From Bdellovibrio bacteriovorus (lineage in GTDB: Bacteria > Bdellovibrionota > Bdellovibrionia > Bdellovibrionales > Bdellovibrionaceae), in NCBI RefSeq assembly GCF_001592735.1, contig NZ_LUKE01000001.1, positions 1 through 64,000 on the forward strand: a DNA stretch of 64,000 nt, read 5' to 3'. Positions 54,444-63,355 of the stretch are shown here, piece after piece. The stretch's first letter is position 1; the number at the start of each line of letters is the position of its first letter. Both the position numbers and the translations under genes were made by a program. The notes under the pieces were generated by a model that was given only the letters and a program-made list of their open reading frames with translations, ran no database searches and was not told the DNA's origin.

Positions 54444-55937
54444 ATGGACACAAACAACGACAAAACAGACATCAAAATAGAAGAGAATAAAAAACCAAAT
54501 AAATCTGCTTTAGAAAAAAGATCTTTGATCATTCTAACAGCCGTATTTGCCTTCGTTTTATTAGGTGCTTGGGGGTTTGCATTAAAACTTCAACAAACCG
54601 TTGCCGCCAATAACTCGGCGACCCATGCGGATCCAGGCGCAGTGATCGAAATTGAGCGCCTTCGTAATTTAGCCGATTCACAAATTGATAATGCTCGCGC
54701 GTTTTTCTTATTGGGCTCTCAGTCTCTCTATGAAAAACAAAAAGAAGGCCGCACCGAACTTCTATCGGCCTTAACTAAGTTTGAACAGGAACACAATCTT
54801 GAGGGGGTTCCGGCACAGCTCAAACGCATCCGTGACCAAGTTCAAAAATCCCAAGAGTTCTTTGAACAGGGCATGGACTTCCGTGAAAAGAAAACGGAAT
54901 CCAAAATCGTGGGCCAATTCTTTCAATCAAAAACAAATCCTATCCGCACCGAGATCAACCAAGCCCTTGATGAAGTCGTAAGCATTCATCAAGCTCAGCT
55001 CGATCGTTCTCGCAGTGAGGCTCGTGAGGCGGCATTGGGTGCTGAAAGCCAAATTCCCAAAGGAATGACCTGGTTGACCGCGTCCATGGCGGCGATCTTC
55101 TTAGCTTTAGCGTTCTTAGTGTTGCGCTTGGTGCGTAAGCAAGCATTTGTGATTTCACAACAAAATCGCCTTTATGCCGAAGCAAAAAAGGCCGTTCAAG
55201 ATCGTGATGAAGCGCTATTTGCTATTTCTCACGACCTTAAAGATTCATTGGCCTTAATTGCTAACACCGCCGATCGCATCAAAATGACCTCTAAAGATCA
55301 AGAACTTGCTGACAGTGGTGAGCTTGTGAGAAACACCGTTGTCACCATCGAGGGCCTGATCCAAGATATCCGCGATAAAAAATCCGTGGAGATGGAAGGT
55401 CTGACTTTGCGTATGGATCAATTGCCGATTGATTCCGTTTTAGAAAACGCAAAACTTCTCATGCAGCCCTTAGCAAAACAACACGATATTCGCCTGCAAA
55501 TAGATAAAGTAAATCCTCCGGTTCTTGCCTTTTACGACAACGACCGGGTTTTACGTGTACTTTCAAACCTGATTAGCAACGCGATTAAGTTCAGTCCTAA
55601 GGGTGAAAAAGTCGTGGTGAAAGTTCGCAGTGACCAAAAATTTGTCAATGTGTCGGTCATTGATAGCGGTGCGGGCATCCCGGCAAGTCAGTTAGAAGGC
55701 ATCTTTGATAACTTCTGGCAGGCAAGAAAGACCGCAGATCAAGGCGCGGGTGTGGGACTTTCCATTGTAAAAACAATTGTTGAGGCTCATGGCGGCACGG
55801 TTGAAATTCAAAGCCAATCAGGTCGCGGCACGACGGTGACCTTCTCTTTACCTCGCCGTCGCCCGGTGGGAGCTTCGATGAATAAGCCCACGGTGAATGT
55901 TCGCCAACACGGCGCAACCCCGGACTGGCATCTTTAA
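54444..55937 (+). CDS. Sensor histidine kinase with long periplasmic domain
   Basis: 497 residues: membrane helix (about 27-48), helical periplasmic domain (about 50-205), second helix (about 208-230), HisKA with His263 in FAISHDLKDSLALIANTADR, ATPase domain (NLISNAIKFSPKG, DSGAGIP, GAGVGLSIVK). The residues after the His read D-L-K-D-S where D-L-K-N-P is usual; the His itself is intact. Sister sub-class of the kinase at 50514. No ribosome site is evident before the ATG. Orphan kinase, ending beside the six-gene operon at a shared terminator. Confidence 0.92.
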   Translation: MDTNNDKTDIKIEENKKPNKSALEKRSLIILTAVFAFVLLGAWGFALKLQQTVAANNSATHADPGAVIEIERLRNLADSQIDNARAFFLLGSQSLYEKQKEGRTELLSALTKFEQEHNLEGVPAQLKRIRDQVQKSQEFFEQGMDFREKKTESKIVGQFFQSKTNPIRTEINQALDEVVSIHQAQLDRSRSEAREAALGAESQIPKGMTWLTASMAAIFLALAFLVLRLVRKQAFVISQQNRLYAEAKKAVQDRDEALFAISHDLKDSLALIANTADRIKMTSKDQELADSGELVRNTVVTIEGLIQDIRDKKSVEMEGLTLRMDQLPIDSVLENAKLLMQPLAKQHDIRLQIDKVNPPVLAFYDNDRVLRVLSNLISNAIKFSPKGEKVVVKVRSDQKFVNVSVIDSGAGIPASQLEGIFDNFWQARKTADQGAGVGLSIVKTIVEAHGGTVEIQSQSGRGTTVTFSLPRRRPVGASMNKPTVNVRQHGATPDWHL

Positions 55938-55944
55938 AAAACCA

Positions 55945-55967
55945 AAGCGGCCTTTTTTAGGCCGCTT
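55945..55967 (-). terminator. Terminator overlapping the Hpt gene stop
   Basis: Stem AAGCGGCC (55945-55952) with GGCCGCTT (55960-55967) around a 7-base loop that contains the TAA of the Hpt gene. The T-run TTGGTTTTTT follows on the minus strand, so it ends the six-gene operon; the plus-strand kinase may also use it. Confidence 0.75.
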
Positions 55968-56379
55968 CTTGTTGAAGCTTATTAAAGCTTAAAACCAGTT
56001 GTTTTAGTTCCCCGGTAAACTCCCCCACTTGCTTTTTTAAAATCGCAAACTGGTTTTGGAATTTATCTTTCTCCCACACATTCGAATTCGCTTCCATCTC
56101 GCGAGCCGTTTCCGGTATTTTTAAACAATGAAAATTAGCGGCGGCTCCTTTAAAGCGATGGGCGGCAGCCCCGATCTTGCGGCGATCCATTTCAGCGATG
56201 GCCGACTCAATATCGGCAAGATAGTTTTCATGACCTTCTAAAAATAGCTCCACCGCCGCAAAGAAGATGTCGTATTCCCCTAAGAACCGCTCTTCCATCA
56301 TTTCGGCAAGAGCCTTGGCATCAAACCCCGCCGCTACAAGCTCTGGACATTTTTGTCTAATTGAATTTTCTAAACTCAT
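55957..56379 (-). CDS. Histidine phosphotransfer (Hpt) protein
   Basis: 140 residues, a single Hpt four-helix bundle with His74 in GAAAHRFKGAAANFHCLKI. The motif A-H-x-x-K-G-x-A-x-x-x-G/H is the phosphotransfer core that shuttles phosphate between receiver domains. Last gene of the six-gene operon, 8 bases after the GT2 synthase stop. It could pass phosphate to the CheY-like protein at 59529 from a hybrid kinase such as 26399. GGAAG ribosome site. Confidence 0.9.
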   Translation of the reverse strand: MSLENSIRQKCPELVAAGFDAKALAEMMEERFLGEYDIFFAAVELFLEGHENYLADIESAIAEMDRRKIGAAAHRFKGAAANFHCLKIPETAREMEANSNVWEKDKFQNQFAILKKQVGEFTGELKQLVLSFNKLQQEAA

Positions 56380-56387
56380 ACATCTTC

Positions 56388-57788
56388 CTATTTCTTGGCA
56401 AAGCCTTTGCGTTTCATATCGCCCCAGGAATGATTCCCTTTCAGGTGATCAACCAGGGCACGGATGCGCCAAAATGAATTCATCTGTCTATAACCAAAAT
56501 TTTCTAACACGGTGGAAAACACTAGCAGAGCGATATCACGCACCCTAGTGTACCGGTGATAATAAAGCTCTCCGATGACCACCGCTCCGACGGAAATAAG
56601 CATTCCGTAAAGCAAGCTTGCCACCACCAACGTCATAATATGTTGATAGTGCACGTAACCTAAAATCAGGCCCAAAGCGATAAAGACGTAAGCAGAAAAC
56701 TCAATAAAAGGTCCCAGGATATCCACGATAAAATTATAGGGAAACGCAAACATCCCGATAACCCCGTAACGCGGATTGAGCATCATGTCGCGGTTATAAT
56801 ACAGACATTGCAAAAGCCCTACCTGCCAACGGCGGCGCTGTTTTTCTAGCGTCTTTATATCGGAAGGTGCTTCGGTCCAGCACACGGGATCTGGCAAAAA
56901 TACAATCGAATACTTCTTTTTCATCTCGCGGTATTTGCGATGCATACGCACCACCAAATCCATATCTTCACCCAAACTATTGGTTTTGTAACCCTGCACA
57001 GCGATCACGGCCTCTTTACGGAAAATCCCGAAAGCTCCCGAAATGACCAGTGTCGCACTCATCATATCTAAACCCACTCGACCGCAGAAAAAACTGCGGA
57101 TGTATTCCACGATTTGCACACGTTCTAGCCAACGCCCGGGCATTTGGTTATCCACCACGCGGCTGTTTTTAAAGGTCGAACCGTTCGCTAACTGAATTGT
57201 TCCACCCGAAGCAATCGTGCTGGGGTTTTCAATAAAGGGCATAGAGATCGATAACAGAGCATCATCATCTAAAACTGAATCTGAATCCACCGCACACACT
57301 AAATCATGAGAGCAATAGTCGATCCCGATATTCAGGCTATCGGCTTTTCCAGAATTGGCTTTATCAATTAAAATTAAGTTCGGATGGATCTGTGAACGAT
57401 ACACACCTCGCACGTTATTCTTAGAAAGATGTGACATTCGCACGACCTCATCCGGTAGCAGCAGACAGGCCTTTTTCATGACTTCCAAAGTGTTATCTTT
57501 AGATCCGTCATTGATCACCACGACCTCGATTTGACCATATTTTAAACGCAATAACGAATGCACAGAATCAACGATGGATTTTTCTTCGTTATAGGCCGGA
57601 ACGATAATAGAAACCGGCGGCGAAAATCCGTAAGAATTCCCCTGCCCTAAAAGAGGCTTAATATTTGAACGACGACGAATCGAAACAAGAGCTAGCGCAA
57701 ATAAAACGATATAAAAGCTATTAATCGCAAAGAAATAAATAGCGACCATTTCGAGATAACGAGGAATTAATTCATTTAGAAAACTCAT
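56388..57788 (-). CDS. Membrane glycosyltransferase family 2 (poly-glycan synthase, PgaC/YaiP-like)
   Basis: 466 residues. One N-terminal membrane helix (about 14-36), GT2 domain with VSIIVPAYNEEKSIVDSVHS, VVVINDGSKDNT, the D-x-D-S sugar-nucleotide site (AVDSDSVLDDDALL), EDMDLVVRMHRK, and the processive motif KQRRRWQVGLLQ; then about four membrane helices (VDILGPFIEFSAYVFIALG). The D, DxD, D, Q-x-x-R-W set marks processive synthases such as PgaC, cellulose synthase and the E. coli YaiP product. It makes and extrudes a beta-linked glycan through the inner membrane. Start overlaps the HEAT gene stop by 4 bases (ATGA). Confidence 0.92.
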   Translation of the reverse strand: MSFLNELIPRYLEMVAIYFFAINSFYIVLFALALVSIRRRSNIKPLLGQGNSYGFSPPVSIIVPAYNEEKSIVDSVHSLLRLKYGQIEVVVINDGSKDNTLEVMKKACLLLPDEVVRMSHLSKNNVRGVYRSQIHPNLILIDKANSGKADSLNIGIDYCSHDLVCAVDSDSVLDDDALLSISMPFIENPSTIASGGTIQLANGSTFKNSRVVDNQMPGRWLERVQIVEYIRSFFCGRVGLDMMSATLVISGAFGIFRKEAVIAVQGYKTNSLGEDMDLVVRMHRKYREMKKKYSIVFLPDPVCWTEAPSDIKTLEKQRRRWQVGLLQCLYYNRDMMLNPRYGVIGMFAFPYNFIVDILGPFIEFSAYVFIALGLILGYVHYQHIMTLVVASLLYGMLISVGAVVIGELYYHRYTRVRDIALLVFSTVLENFGYRQMNSFWRIRALVDHLKGNHSWGDMKRKGFAKK

Positions 57789-58804
57789 GCTTCTTTCCTC
57801 AAGGCCTTGGCGGGCTCTAAAATCTGACGATATAATCTTTGTCCATGCGGGCTTTCATCCACGGACAGGCGCTGCGTGATTTCCATTTTTAAGTCCGGAC
57901 GGATTTTTAACAAAGACAAATAGGCCACGTTTCGTACAAAGGCGGTTTCCACGCGGGTCATCTTTTGCAAGATCTCTTCGGACTCTTCGTCCGGCGCCAT
58001 CGTCAAACACAGCGTGTAACGACGGAAATCAAAGTCTTCAAATTCTGGAAATCCTTCGCAGCGAAGTCCGTCGATGAGTTGGTCTTTTACAATCGGCAAA
58101 GCCTCCACCACTTGCAGGCGGTTGACGACCTCTAGACAAATACTGACGACTTCACGGCTTTGATGCGTTTTTAAAAGCTCTAAGAAATCTTCGGGGCTGG
58201 CGCTGGCATACATTTCTAAAATCTGCATCGCCGTATCCATGCGTCCTAGGTCTTTCAGCAGATTTAATTCTTTCGCAATATTCACATACAATTTAGGGCA
58301 TTTAATTTTTAAAAGAAACTTTAACGCCGCAAAATGCACATAAGGGGACGGATCGTGCAACATCTTACCCACTTGCCCCGCCGACTCGCTATCTTTTAAG
58401 ATATCAATGCGCGAAAGTGCCGAAAGACGTTTGGCAAAACTTGAACTGTGTAAAAGTTTTTGGTCTTCGGCTAAAAAACCCATATCACGGTAAAGCTTTT
58501 CTAGGTTTTCACGGTAGGCACCGCTCACGCTATCGACGGCCTTTAAAATCAATCCCCGCACAATCAAGCGATGGCGCGTTTTCAGTTTTAGCAAGTCTTG
58601 AATATCCATATTCATGCCGCAACAGATATCCGTGACACGCTCATGAAGCTTTGGCATGACTTCCGCAGTTTCTTTTAATGAACCTTTACGGATGATCGTC
58701 ATGCAAAAAATCAACGAAACGCCCAACGCGTTTAAACCCACCTGAAAGACAATCAGGTAAGCTGCCCAGTGATCATGCATTTTTTGAACTAAGGCATTTA
58801 CCAT
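57785..58804 (-). CDS. Membrane-anchored HEAT-repeat protein
   Basis: 339 residues from ATG 58804; a GTG at 58828 is in frame but sits deeper inside the previous gene. One membrane helix (about 15-38, LIVFQVGLNALGVSLIFCM), then helical repeats of HEAT type across about 60-330: QKLLHSSSFAKRLSALSRID, GKMLHDPSPYVHFAALKFLL, RNVAYLSLLKIRPDLKM. Such a scaffold, tethered to the inner membrane and with its helices in the cytosol, sits next to a GT2 synthase in several bacteria. Overlaps the YaiO-like gene end by 7 bases. Role inferred: assembly or regulation of the synthase. Confidence 0.82.
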   Translation of the reverse strand: MVNALVQKMHDHWAAYLIVFQVGLNALGVSLIFCMTIIRKGSLKETAEVMPKLHERVTDICCGMNMDIQDLLKLKTRHRLIVRGLILKAVDSVSGAYRENLEKLYRDMGFLAEDQKLLHSSSFAKRLSALSRIDILKDSESAGQVGKMLHDPSPYVHFAALKFLLKIKCPKLYVNIAKELNLLKDLGRMDTAMQILEMYASASPEDFLELLKTHQSREVVSICLEVVNRLQVVEALPIVKDQLIDGLRCEGFPEFEDFDFRRYTLCLTMAPDEESEEILQKMTRVETAFVRNVAYLSLLKIRPDLKMEITQRLSVDESPHGQRLYRQILEPAKALRKEA

Positions 58805-59532
58805 TGCCACTTGAGCCCCACTCCCCACTGAGATCCGCGGCGCGTCTGGCCTTGATAGTCTTCAAGGTTTAAGTACAGATGGGCTTTTTTATAGACATAT
58901 GAAATCGTTATCGCGTAGGAGTTAAAGGGGTCAATAAATCCCACGTCTTCACGATTTTCACCCCCCGCCCAAGAAAGTTCGGCAGAATAGCGTTCATAAC
59001 GTGCACGGAAAAACTCTCGATGAGCATGATGCCAGCCACTATCATCGTAAAACCAGCTGCTATGGCCAAGGCTTAATTGCTCATTAATAAAATAAATGAT
59101 CTGGGGTTGATAGCTTTGAACCTCGCCAGTTTCGTATTTTCCGTAATGAAAACCCAGCGCCAAATCCCAATTGGTAAAATAAGACGTGTGCGGAATCATC
59201 GAAACCGAAGTTTGGGGACCCACCAAGGTGTCGTCATCAAACGCGCCCGCCAGTTCCACATAAGATTTGAGGTTATCAAAAACAACCGTATCCCCGATCA
59301 ACACGGCGTCGCGATAAAATCCGACTTCGCTGGTGTAATCACGACGGGCGTGCTCATAGCCCAGATAGAATTTATTTTTATCGCCTAGGTCCGTGTTTAC
59401 CAAAACTCTATGGCCGGATTCGTGATAAGTATTTCCATAATCGCCCTTAAAGTAAGACGTATCCACGGAAGTAAGTCCCGCCCGCGCGTGAAGTGACATC
59501 AGCAAAGAAAAAAGAAGCGCCATTATCTTCAT
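58798..59532 (-). CDS. YaiO-like outer-membrane beta-barrel protein
   Basis: 244 residues with a signal peptide (LFSLLMSLHARAG). Beta-strand-rich, with YLGYEHARRDYTSEVGFYRD, NWDLALGFHYGKYETGEVQS, ELSWAGGENREDVG and C-terminal VGLKWQW (aromatic end). Length and pattern fit the YaiO family of outer-membrane proteins. E. coli yaiO neighbours yaiP, a GT2 gene, matching the arrangement here. Probably forms the outer-membrane exit or anchor for the glycan made by the GT2 synthase. 4-base overlap with the CheY-like gene (ATGA). Confidence 0.75.
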   Translation of the reverse strand: MKIMALLFSLLMSLHARAGLTSVDTSYFKGDYGNTYHESGHRVLVNTDLGDKNKFYLGYEHARRDYTSEVGFYRDAVLIGDTVVFDNLKSYVELAGAFDDDTLVGPQTSVSMIPHTSYFTNWDLALGFHYGKYETGEVQSYQPQIIYFINEQLSLGHSSWFYDDSGWHHAHREFFRARYERYSAELSWAGGENREDVGFIDPFNSYAITISYVYKKAHLYLNLEDYQGQTRRGSQWGVGLKWQW

Positions 59533-59900
59533 GAACGGCCTATGACGACCTTCACCTTGGCTAAGATCAGCGGCAAGTTGTAGGGCTTGGTAAGGTGGTC
59601 TAAGGCGCCGATTTCTAAACTCTTTAAAGAAGCTTCCTCGGACTTATTGGAAGTTAAAACAATGGTGGGCGGCAGCACGTTTTTATCGCGCGCATGCCAG
59701 ATAAGTTCCACACCCGAAAGTCCGGGCATAGATATGTCCGTGATCAGAAGATCAAATTTATCTTGGCTTAAGTGCTTTTCAAAAGCCTCAAGGCCATCAT
59801 GAGCGCGAGTCACCTGATAGCCTGCGGATGTTAAGGCACGCTCTAAAATCATACCTTCAATTTGACTGTCTTCTGCAATTAGGATTTTCTTTGCGCCCAT
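59529..59900 (-). CDS. CheY-like single-domain response regulator
   Basis: 123 residues, receiver only: LIAEDSQIEGM acidic pocket, phosphoacceptor Asp55 in LLITDISMPGLSG, conserved Ser/Thr in IVLTSNK and Lys in HLTKPYNLP. No output domain, so it acts by protein contact or as a phosphate carrier. Second gene of the six-gene operon, 3 bases after the lipoprotein stop and overlapping the YaiO-like gene by 4. The HEAT protein, GT2 synthase or Hpt protein of the same operon are candidate partners. Confidence 0.93.
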   Translation of the reverse strand: MGAKKILIAEDSQIEGMILERALTSAGYQVTRAHDGLEAFEKHLSQDKFDLLITDISMPGLSGVELIWHARDKNVLPPTIVLTSNKSEEASLKSLEIGALDHLTKPYNLPLILAKVKVVIGRS

Positions 59901-59903
59901 ATC

Positions 59904-61232
59904 TCACCAATAAGAAGTTCCCCCGACAGTTCTATTTGTACTTGGAGAAAGCCACGTTGAGCCTCCACCCGTAAGAATATTCACCACCGGTGCTGTGACA
60001 AAATCTACAAGGGTTAAATTTAAATCCTTAACTAAGTTAGATAAAAGCGGCGGACTGACGCTCACGATTTTAAGGCCGCTCACACCCGACGCCACATAAA
60101 GCAGGTTGTTTCTAGCAAAAACGTGGTTCACCGAAATCCCAGAACCAAAACCGATTTTGCCCAAACGATTTAACGTTAAACTGTCACAACCATTGCTTAA
60201 GATATTAGCGTACTGCAAAGAATAAACCTGCACGCCGCCCTCACCGTTACCAGCATATAAAAGACCATTATCGATCGTGGCTGCATTCGTCACGTTACGT
60301 CCTGCGGGAACGGTGGCATCCGGATACGGAGTTTGCGTTTGTAAAACACGACCGTCGGTATTACACATAATCGAAAAACCACCATCACCAATAGCTGCCA
60401 CGGTGAAATACACACCCGACTGCAAAGTCCCTTTAGATTCCGGAATCGTCGCCCCGCCTAGCGCTTTTGATACAGTGGGCGCTGGAGTTTGTCCGGTTGC
60501 CGATGTCGAGAGCGCCGCAGGGTTGTAAGCCAAGACGCGACCATTTTGCGCACCTAAAACCAACAAAGCGTTGGTGAAGGTCGGCATCGAAAGAGCCCGA
60601 GAGTCATAAATATTACTTTGCCCCAAAACCGTGTAGTTCGTGTTATTAACGATCGAAAGACCGCCGTTGTCCCCGGTAGAAACAAAGATAAAATTACTGG
60701 TAACCAAAACGGCATTGGCCACGTAACTTGGCAAATACACCAAGGCCGCCTCCGTCGTTGGCAATCCCGTGAGTGGATTTAAGTTTAAAACACGTAAATA
60801 AGAAGGGGGATTGATGTTATCACCTTGCGCACCTACTAAATAAAGTCGACTGCCATTGATCGCCATCGCATTCACGTTATATCCCGTGTATGTGATTAAG
60901 CTTTTAGATTTTGGAAAATAGGGGTTTGAGATGTCGATAACTTCTAAAGCCCCAACACGTGTGCTTCCTTGAACGTTGTAAGACACGTAAGCAAAATTTC
61001 CGCTAACCAAAGTCTGCGTCGCACCTAAAGTTAAGCCATTCACGACCGGAGCTGGCGCTGTCCCAATCAGAGTCATAGACAGACTTAAAAGACCACTGGC
61101 ATTCACCAGATCAATCTTTGTGTTTTCAATTTGTATACGACCTGTATCAAGACTGCTATGCTCGCCCCAAAGCACCCCTGAACATCCCAAACTTAAACTT
61201 GCGATCGCAGCGATCAACGCTCGACGAATCAT
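59904..61232 (-). CDS. Lipoprotein with LVIVD-type beta-propeller repeats
   Basis: 442 residues from ATG 61232 (GAGGTGTC before it; an ATG four codons upstream is less well placed). Lipobox SLGCS. The mature part has about six repeats of the LVIVD pattern: YVSYNVQGSTRVGALEVIDI with NPYFPKSKS, LYLVGAQGDNINPPSYLRVL, FIFVSTGDNGGLSIVNN, and LYVASGVSGLKIVSVS near the end, expected to fold as a propeller on a membrane surface. First gene of the glycan operon. Role unknown; surface sensing or glycan binding is possible. Confidence 0.85.
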   Translation of the reverse strand: MIRRALIAAIASLSLGCSGVLWGEHSSLDTGRIQIENTKIDLVNASGLLSLSMTLIGTAPAPVVNGLTLGATQTLVSGNFAYVSYNVQGSTRVGALEVIDISNPYFPKSKSLITYTGYNVNAMAINGSRLYLVGAQGDNINPPSYLRVLNLNPLTGLPTTEAALVYLPSYVANAVLVTSNFIFVSTGDNGGLSIVNNTNYTVLGQSNIYDSRALSMPTFTNALLVLGAQNGRVLAYNPAALSTSATGQTPAPTVSKALGGATIPESKGTLQSGVYFTVAAIGDGGFSIMCNTDGRVLQTQTPYPDATVPAGRNVTNAATIDNGLLYAGNGEGGVQVYSLQYANILSNGCDSLTLNRLGKIGFGSGISVNHVFARNNLLYVASGVSGLKIVSVSPPLLSNLVKDLNLTLVDFVTAPVVNILTGGGSTWLSPSTNRTVGGTSYW

Positions 61233-61423
61233 TTGACACCTCATCTCGCATTTTTTATCGGTAAAACTTGTTTAGTAATGCAGGAACTGAAGAAATCTTG
61301 AACAGTGGTGAGTCTCGCAAACCATTTCTCGAAATGAAACAGAGGTAAAATATTAATTTCACTCATCCTTCTTATTAGCCATCCGATAAGTATTAAGCTG
61401 GACTCATCAGGGGAGAAGAACAA

Positions 61424-63355
61424 ATGCATAAAAGGCAAAAGTCTTTGTACGCTATCTTTTTGATCTTGCTGATGGTGCCTTTTCAAAACTGCGGACCTTC
61501 GTTTGAAGTCATTAAACAGTCCGACATGAATAGCGTGATGTCTGAAACCGATGTCCTAGTAAAAAAGGGCCAAGCCCTTTACGAAAAAAACTGCATGGGC
61601 TGCCACTCTCCCATGATTCAATCTACGAAAACAAATCGTTCAGCCACGAAAATCACTGAGGCCATTAATAACATTTCCCAAATGACTCATCTTAAGAGTT
61701 TAAGTGCAAGTGACATTCAAGCCATCGCCGTGGCTTTAGAGCGCCGTTCTGACGGAAATCCATTTACATGTCTGGCGGACCGATCCCCTTCCAACGATGC
61801 GCTTCGCCGCCTTTCGCGTGATGAATATCTCAACACCTTAAGTGATCTTTTTGAAGGGGCCGTGAGTTTAAGTGAACTGCAAGCTCAGGTGAATTTATTC
61901 CCGCTCGATGTAGGCGATGACGGTATGCCGTTTGATCGCGCGTCACGCACGGTGACTTCGGGTATCTTTAGTGCGCAAGTAAGCATCGCCGAAAAAGTGG
62001 GTGACTTGCTAGCGACGAATGCCACGAAAAGACAAAGAATCTATTCGGAATCTTGTTTCACGGCGAGCACGGTGACGGATGCCTGCGTAAATACCTTCGT
62101 CCAACGCTTTGGCAAAAAAGCCCTGCGCCGTCCAGTCACTGGTGGCGAGCAAAGTTTATTTCTAAATGCTTATCGCATTGGTGAAAATCACGCGGAGGGT
62201 TCACGCTATTTAACGCGTGTTTTGCTTTTGCATCCAAGCTTCCTCTATCACACTGAATTTAACGGCACTTTGGCCGAAGGAAAATCGGATCTTTATAATT
62301 TAAGTGCCTATGAGCTCGCCTCTCGTTTATCTTTTTTAATTACCGGCTCTATCCCTGATGCGGCTCTGACAGCCAAGGCGGATGATCAGTCGATTTTAAA
62401 AGCCGAAGTTTTATCTCAAGAAGCCACGCGGTTACTTGCGAGCAACAAAGCAAAATCAAGTTTTCGCCGCTTTTATCGCAAATACTTAGTGCTTGATAAC
62501 TTAAAAGCACCGACTTACTCCGCCGCTTTCAGAGAAAGCATTTCCACGTCAAACTTAAATGAAGACGCCGTCGAAGAAATGCTTTCATTCACGGACTATA
62601 TCACTTTGAATAATCGCCCCTTGCCTGAAATGCTCAACTCGCGCGTGGCTTTCGTTAAGTCGGCCAATCTTGCCAGCGTTTATGGTATTGCGCCCTCTTC
62701 CAGCGCCGATGGTCAAGTGACCTTGCCCGCCGGACGTGCGGGAATCATGACCCGTGTTGGATTTTTATTGTCAGGGAACGATACGACAAATCCTATTCAT
62801 CGCGGCTTTGTCACCAGAAGTTCTTTACTTTGTGATGAGATCGGCTCTCCCGATCCGACAAAACTTCCACCGGGATCTTTAGAACATCCGCCTCTGGATC
62901 CCAACTTAAGCACTCGTCAACGTTGGACCGTAAAAACATCAGCGCCCGCTTGTATCGGTTGCCACAGTCAAATCAATCCCCTGGGTTTTGCCTTAGAAGG
63001 CTTTGACGGTATGGGCCGCGCGCGCGCGCAAGAAACCGTGTTTAACTCTTCAGGCACGGTTATCGCCCGCATCCCGGTGGACACCAAAGTCAGCCCGAAT
63101 ATTGCTAGCGAAAGTGAACGCGGCGTTGATGGAGGCAGTGAATTGTCCGCCGCCGTGGCCGAAAGTCAAAAATTCAACGCCTGTTTTGTAAAAAAATGGC
63201 ATCAGTTTGCTATGCGCAAAAAAGTAGATCCACAAGATGGCTGCATGGCCTCACAACTTTATGAAGTTTTGCAGCGTCCTGACGGAACGCCTTTAGAAAT
63301 GATTAAGTCTTTGATCAATCACCCCAACTTCCGCCAACGCCGGCAGAGTCTGTAG
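61424..63355 (+). CDS. DUF1592/DUF1588/DUF1585 cytochrome-like lipoprotein
   Basis: 643 residues. Lipobox-like FQNCGP (Cys23). c-type haem motif CMGCH at about 58-62, another at the C-terminal third (CIGCHSQINPLG). Domain order follows the family: DUF1587-like LSRDEYLNTLSDLF, DUF1592-like RLSFLITGSIPDAAL, DUF1588-like RAGIMTRVGFLLSGNDTTNP plus TKLPPGSLEHPPL, DUF1585-like GCMASQLYEVLQRPDGTPLE. Such proteins are nearly always followed by a DUF1552 protein, as here. Function unknown; probably exported electron-transfer or oxidoreductase complex. GGGGAGAAG ribosome site. Confidence 0.92.
   Translation: MHKRQKSLYAIFLILLMVPFQNCGPSFEVIKQSDMNSVMSETDVLVKKGQALYEKNCMGCHSPMIQSTKTNRSATKITEAINNISQMTHLKSLSASDIQAIAVALERRSDGNPFTCLADRSPSNDALRRLSRDEYLNTLSDLFEGAVSLSELQAQVNLFPLDVGDDGMPFDRASRTVTSGIFSAQVSIAEKVGDLLATNATKRQRIYSESCFTASTVTDACVNTFVQRFGKKALRRPVTGGEQSLFLNAYRIGENHAEGSRYLTRVLLLHPSFLYHTEFNGTLAEGKSDLYNLSAYELASRLSFLITGSIPDAALTAKADDQSILKAEVLSQEATRLLASNKAKSSFRRFYRKYLVLDNLKAPTYSAAFRESISTSNLNEDAVEEMLSFTDYITLNNRPLPEMLNSRVAFVKSANLASVYGIAPSSSADGQVTLPAGRAGIMTRVGFLLSGNDTTNPIHRGFVTRSSLLCDEIGSPDPTKLPPGSLEHPPLDPNLSTRQRWTVKTSAPACIGCHSQINPLGFALEGFDGMGRARAQETVFNSSGTVIARIPVDTKVSPNIASESERGVDGGSELSAAVAESQKFNACFVKKWHQFAMRKKVDPQDGCMASQLYEVLQRPDGTPLEMIKSLINHPNFRQRRQSL

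Follow-up and report, generated by a model that had tools for sequence, protein, structure and literature searches.

What does a glycan synthase gene do in an operon that also encodes phosphorelay proteins? The operon occupies positions 55957–61232 of a 64,000-nucleotide stretch of Bdellovibrio bacteriovorus DNA (the window; contig NZ_LUKE01000001.1, positions 1 to 64,000). It encodes a family 2 glycosyltransferase (GT2), a HEAT-repeat protein, a YaiO-like β-barrel, a CheY-like receiver (REC), an Hpt protein and an LVIVD-type lipoprotein. Judged by sequence comparison, the conserved unit is a REC-(optional YaiO)-HEAT-GT2 core rather than the six-gene set. We assign a probability of about 0.6 to the reading that the operon is a synthase-dependent exopolysaccharide system in which the HEAT subunit receives phosphorelay input from REC and REC gates synthesis.

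All six open reading frames (ORFs) are co-directional on the minus strand. ORF coordinates and hairpin folding confirmed the original prediction of six genes, separated in LVIVD-to-Hpt order by 3, −4, −7, −4 and 8 bases, with a terminator in the last stop codon (hairpin −18.7 kcal/mol, z = −4.0; 0/200 shuffles equal or better). The features are:

59904–61232, minus strand: LVIVD-like lipoprotein, accessory (lipobox ...LSLGC; PF08309 sub-threshold; second in-frame ATG at 61244)
59529–59900, minus strand: stand-alone REC, a CheY-like response regulator (PF00072, E 1.5e-22)
58798–59532, minus strand: YaiO-like outer-membrane β-barrel (TIGR04390 sub-threshold; AlphaFold2 model)
57785–58804, minus strand: membrane-anchored HEAT-repeat protein (N-terminal transmembrane helix at 17–35; GT2-adjacent or fused in relatives)
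56388–57788, minus strand: GT2 membrane polysaccharide synthase (PF13641, E 2.5e-25)
55957–56379, minus strand: Hpt phosphotransfer protein, optional partner (PF01627, E 4.8e-10)
55944–55968, minus strand: Rho-independent terminator overlapping the Hpt stop (10 pairs, then a T-run)

REC, Hpt and GT2 clear the Pfam cut-offs and are firmly assigned to their families. The names HEAT, YaiO and LVIVD rest on relatives and models because the window proteins score under the curated cut-offs (HEAT_2, 19.9 versus 27.7 bits; TIGR04390, 19.3 versus 32 bits; PF08309, 17.0 versus 20.2 bits). Relatives of the HEAT protein are annotated as HEAT, and the HEAT half of a modeled natural HEAT-GT2 fusion (L121) is a run of consecutive helix pairs, followed by the GT2 fold. 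Several relatives of the YaiO-like protein are annotated as YaiO family; its AlphaFold2 model is a 14-strand barrel (predicted local distance difference test, pLDDT, 94) with structural matches of the OmpG/CymA/FadL type.

Comparison across loci shows a conserved, sometimes fused HEAT-GT2 unit. Among 85 assessable loci (those with enough upstream sequence), 80 have HEAT immediately before GT2 or joined to it in one protein (73 adjacent, 7 fused), spanning ~15 phyla including archaea; in two further loci, both from Nitrospira, HEAT lies within 7 kb of GT2. The arrangement is directional: HEAT occupies position −1 relative to GT2 in 73/94 loci and positions +1 to +8 in none. Surveys that started from HEAT gave the same picture. 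The 349 Pseudomonadota and 249 Bacillota genomes surveyed contained 13 and ~20 near-full-length HEAT homologues, respectively, and GT2 adjoins all 24 that were examined (13 Pseudomonadota and 11 Bacillota, one of the latter matching model positions 13–325 only). A GT2 neighbor was found within the 1.5 kb flank of 0/11 partial homologues examined. Natural HEAT-GT2 fusions, seven (L118, L121, L125, L128, L129, L130, L134) plus 16 more in one order, come from Acholeplasmataceae, Clostridia and Spirochaetes, and because they exist HEAT and GT2 probably work as a single unit.

An N-terminal membrane helix is present in 73/75 HEAT relatives. The L121 fusion model (pLDDT 87.7; predicted template modeling score 0.81) was built on an alignment of natural fusions and separate GT2s; a mixed alignment that also paired separate HEAT proteins with the fusions was dropped, as HEAT rows landed on the GT2 half. 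BcsA alignments take in residue 1 of the model, which hints that the HEAT anchor may pack beside the synthase.

The window GT2 carries D168/D170, E274-D275 and QxxRW (Q317–W321), and these motifs, together with ND94, are kept in 85–86 of 86 HEAT-linked GT2 relatives. Its best NCBIfam match is TIGR03937 (PgaC/IcaA; E 4.5e-40), at 137.9 bits versus the poly-N-acetylglucosamine synthase cut-off of 422.3, and it likewise misses the cellulose synthase cut-off (TIGR03030, 48.7 versus 699.1 bits). The GT2 family model matches hyaluronan synthase, BcsA/cellulose synthase and chitin synthase folds; for the GT2 part of the L121 model the scores are Z 25.3 for hyaluronan synthase (396 residues, 3.2 Å), 24.5 for BcsA and 18.6 for fungal chitin synthase. 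A tree of the GT2s places the HEAT-linked proteins in one clade of 98 tips (support 0.89). Twelve of these tips have no HEAT beside them, and they are mainly truncated contigs, Nitrospira and three Bdellovibrionota relatives, the last with a different protein upstream.

The window REC retains the acidic pocket, phospho-Asp, Thr/Ser and Lys (D11, D55, T83, K105); across 42 stand-alone relatives D11, D55 and K105 are invariant and T/S83 is present in 98%. Comparison also shows REC to be linked to HEAT-GT2. It lies upstream of GT2 on the same strand in 62/85 loci, a lower bound since the search profile, derived from Bdellovibrio sequences, failed to pick up fused receivers such as that of L130, and it occupies position −2 or −3 in 59/177 cases, versus ~3% downstream. 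The window Hpt carries the HxxKG phospho-His motif as AHRFKGA and is a recurrent yet optional partner of the REC-HEAT-GT2 core. In one relative (G021) a hybrid histidine kinase gene comes after the Hpt gene and overlaps it. With 29 matches to the G021 kinase in the genome, no single cognate hybrid kinase can be selected. Phosphorelay action upon the HEAT protein or the synthase is plausible.

YaiO accompanies the core in 20/25 Pseudomonadota loci, 0/15 Bacillota, 0/3 Acholeplasmataceae/Mollicutes and 0/2 archaea, a comparison that shows its restriction to outer-membrane phyla. The original prediction had likened the pairing to E. coli yaiO and yaiP, an analogy that proved weak: the window GT2 resembles PgaC (E 2e-31) more than YaiP (E 2e-12, 24% identical), and the E. 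coli locus has no annotated HEAT or REC gene. YaiO-GT2 pairs without HEAT group with PgaC and YaiP, outside the HEAT-linked clade. Such pairs occur in Bdellovibrionota at L022, L026–L032, L034 and L035.

The HEAT gene is present in 3/24 genomes of the genus, with 60% identity to the window protein in G021 and 30% in G017. The G021 order is REC-YaiO-HEAT-GT2-Hpt, with an LVIVD gene upstream on the opposite strand; the G017 locus has only REC-YaiO-HEAT-GT2. A search of the phylum found GT2 in 38/291 genomes, and scanning named genomes yielded 80 loci across Bacteria and archaeal metagenome-assembled genomes (MAGs). The archaeal and several other phylum assignments come partly from MAGs; isolates confirm the module in Pseudomonadota, Bacillota, Bacteroidota, Deinococcota and Halobacteria, with the HEAT-GT2 pair or the REC triple visible in public annotations of Haloarcula, Halosolutus, Salinirubellus, Mesorhizobium, Erythrobacter, Deinococcus, Planococcus, Bacteroides and Legionella. 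Confinement to one strain, which the original prediction had named as a finding that would count against it, is clearly not what we observe. Its proposal of six genes acting as a system holds for the core; Hpt can be absent, and LVIVD is an accessory seen chiefly in Bdellovibrionota, with homologues near GT2 in nine loci. Nor is the system a predator trait: few genomes of the genus have the HEAT gene, but the module also occurs in haloarchaea, Gram-positives and numerous non-predators.

The HEAT-GT2 fusions, the kept REC phospho-residues and the occurrence of YaiO in outer-membrane lineages only lead us to infer a receiver-gated synthase with a YaiO exit, in keeping with the earlier proposal of phosphorelay-equipped synthesis and export of an unnamed glycan. 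GT2 would polymerize a uridine diphosphate (UDP)-sugar, probably an N-acetylhexosamine or derivative, and pass the chain across the inner membrane. HEAT would be an obligatory cytosolic subunit, anchored beside the synthase by its N-terminal helix. REC, phosphorylated via Hpt and hybrid kinases, would dock on the HEAT subunit and so gate synthesis, and the YaiO barrel would be the polymer's exit across the outer membrane. GlmU-like and GlmS genes lie downstream of GT2 in Halosolutus, TviB/TviC-like genes flank it in Legionella adelaidensis, and a polysaccharide deacetylase is reported within the C. perfringens locus NELoc-2 (PMC11677781). The precursor genes of the two lineages point to UDP-N-acetylhexosamines, and all three observations suggest N-acetylhexosamine-derived polymers, possibly differing by lineage.

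Several observations weigh against this reading. REC went undetected in 22/85 loci, some of them fused forms missed by the profile (L130) and others truly without a neighboring REC. The Legionella GT2 is just 30% identical, and the precursor clues come from two lineages alone. We found no biochemistry for any module member. Finally, the membrane mannosyltransferase PcManGT is the top fold match (Z 26.8) for the GT2 part of the L121 model, so that GT2 could act non-processively, glycosylating a lipid or protein and making no polymer. We consider this quite improbable: the QxxRW and Asp motifs are invariant or nearly so, the hyaluronan and cellulose synthase alignments are longer (396–403 residues versus 339), and an outer-membrane barrel accompanies GT2 in outer-membrane phyla. 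We infer that GT2 is processive.

HEAT solenoids are general scaffolds. REC and HEAT might only direct the synthase to its place, such as a pole or prey-contact site, with HEAT as scaffold and REC as localization signal and no gating of activity. The stand-alone REC has no output domain and Pfam predicts no enzyme or nucleotide-binding domain in the window HEAT protein, both of which fit such a role; the fusions and the adjacency in ~15 phyla indicate an enzyme subunit, though they are compatible with localization, and we regard positioning alone as unlikely. We hold about the same doubt toward control by cyclic di-GMP (c-di-GMP), in which the module would resemble Pga, Bcs or Nfr and REC would be one of several routes feeding a diguanylate cyclase signal to HEAT. 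Receivers of Bacillota and Gemmatimonadota often carry additional Hpt, GGDEF or ODP domains, the L118 and L130 fusions are immediately preceded by an ODP-GGDEF-REC protein, and GGDEF is among the commonest domains of the other neighbors, some of which keep GGEEF. However, REC stands alone in most Gram-negative and archaeal loci, including the window, at least one GGDEF is degenerate (GGAEF, L088), and a Pfam scan found no PilZ, MshEN or GGDEF domain in the six window proteins. Among processive bacterial synthases that have been studied well, control is mainly by c-di-GMP (review, PMC8461298). Tentatively, REC-HEAT-GT2 may be a cross-domain synthase class switched directly by a phosphorylated receiver through HEAT, a two-component counterpart of c-di-GMP-gated BcsA and PgaC/D.

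Known systems share parts of this arrangement. PgaABCD/IcaADBC (poly-β-1,6-N-acetylglucosamine) has an inner-membrane GT2 with the same catalytic motifs and, in Pga, an outer-membrane barrel, but the window operon has HEAT and REC and, among its six genes, no PgaB/IcaB-type deacetylase or PgaD gene. NfrA-NfrB-YbcH of E. coli likewise combines a GT2 with an outer-membrane barrel for an uncharacterized exopolysaccharide (PMC8669469); unlike NfrB, the window GT2 has no fused MshEN match (Pfam scan), and its operon adds HEAT and REC. E. coli yaiO-yaiX-yaiP-yaiS resembles the operon in having a GT2 gene near a YaiO barrel gene and differs as described above. In C. perfringens NELoc-2, an 11-gene locus described with a putative chitin synthase, a HEAT-repeat gene is directly followed by a GT2 gene (CP4_0467/0468), a pair listed without function (PMC2879425); neither REC nor a barrel is reported in the locus. 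A Planococcus plasmid (L141:1–7413) has much the same VTC-X-CotH-X-HEAT-GT2 order, its genes being polyphosphate polymerase, DUF4956, CotH, an unknown protein, HEAT and GT2, with a Qat defense gene nearby. Gram-positive pelDEADAFG clusters share with this plasmid accessory genes for CotH, polyphosphate polymerase and DUF4956, but their core proteins are Pel and the paper mentions neither a HEAT repeat nor a response regulator (PMC7112168). Two candidates for the same system, C. difficile ccsA and a mixed-linkage glucan synthase of Romboutsia, were rejected, the literature search results showing no HEAT or REC link, and EmbRS of Rubrivivax concerns DNA-binding regulators of other polysaccharide clusters. 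In the open-licence full text searched we found no description of the REC-HEAT-GT2 module, the NELoc-2 listing being its sole trace, in line with the original statement that no described system with this gene set was known.

If the preferred reading of a receiver-gated synthase is right, phosphorelays directly control polymer synthesis through a module found in ~15 phyla, and many orphan annotations, including the NELoc-2 genes, are explained. The module is widespread yet apparently undescribed, the Bdellovibrio operon being one instance and no predator invention, and it provides a defined gene set for finding which glycan these bacteria and haloarchaea make.

Other genes recur near the core. 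A glycosidase-like family in 15 loci (including L060:6338–8017 and L065:9430–11103) matches PDB 10yv, a putative GH97 (E 1e-17); two members scanned had no Pfam match. A family of ~700-residue secreted proteins near HEAT-GT2 had no PDB match and, in members scanned, no Pfam match. An LVIVD lipoprotein relative (40% identity) is encoded at G016:C14:1154516–1155793, in a genome without a HEAT match, and in a Gemmatimonadetes MAG (L066:8001–10136) an apparent GT2-YaiO-like barrel fusion, possibly a frame or assembly error, is followed by an LVIVD-type lipoprotein. Within the window, the operon is adjoined by a convergent histidine kinase gene (54444–55937) and a divergent gene (61424–63355) for a cytochrome c protein with DUF1587/1592/1595/1588/1585.

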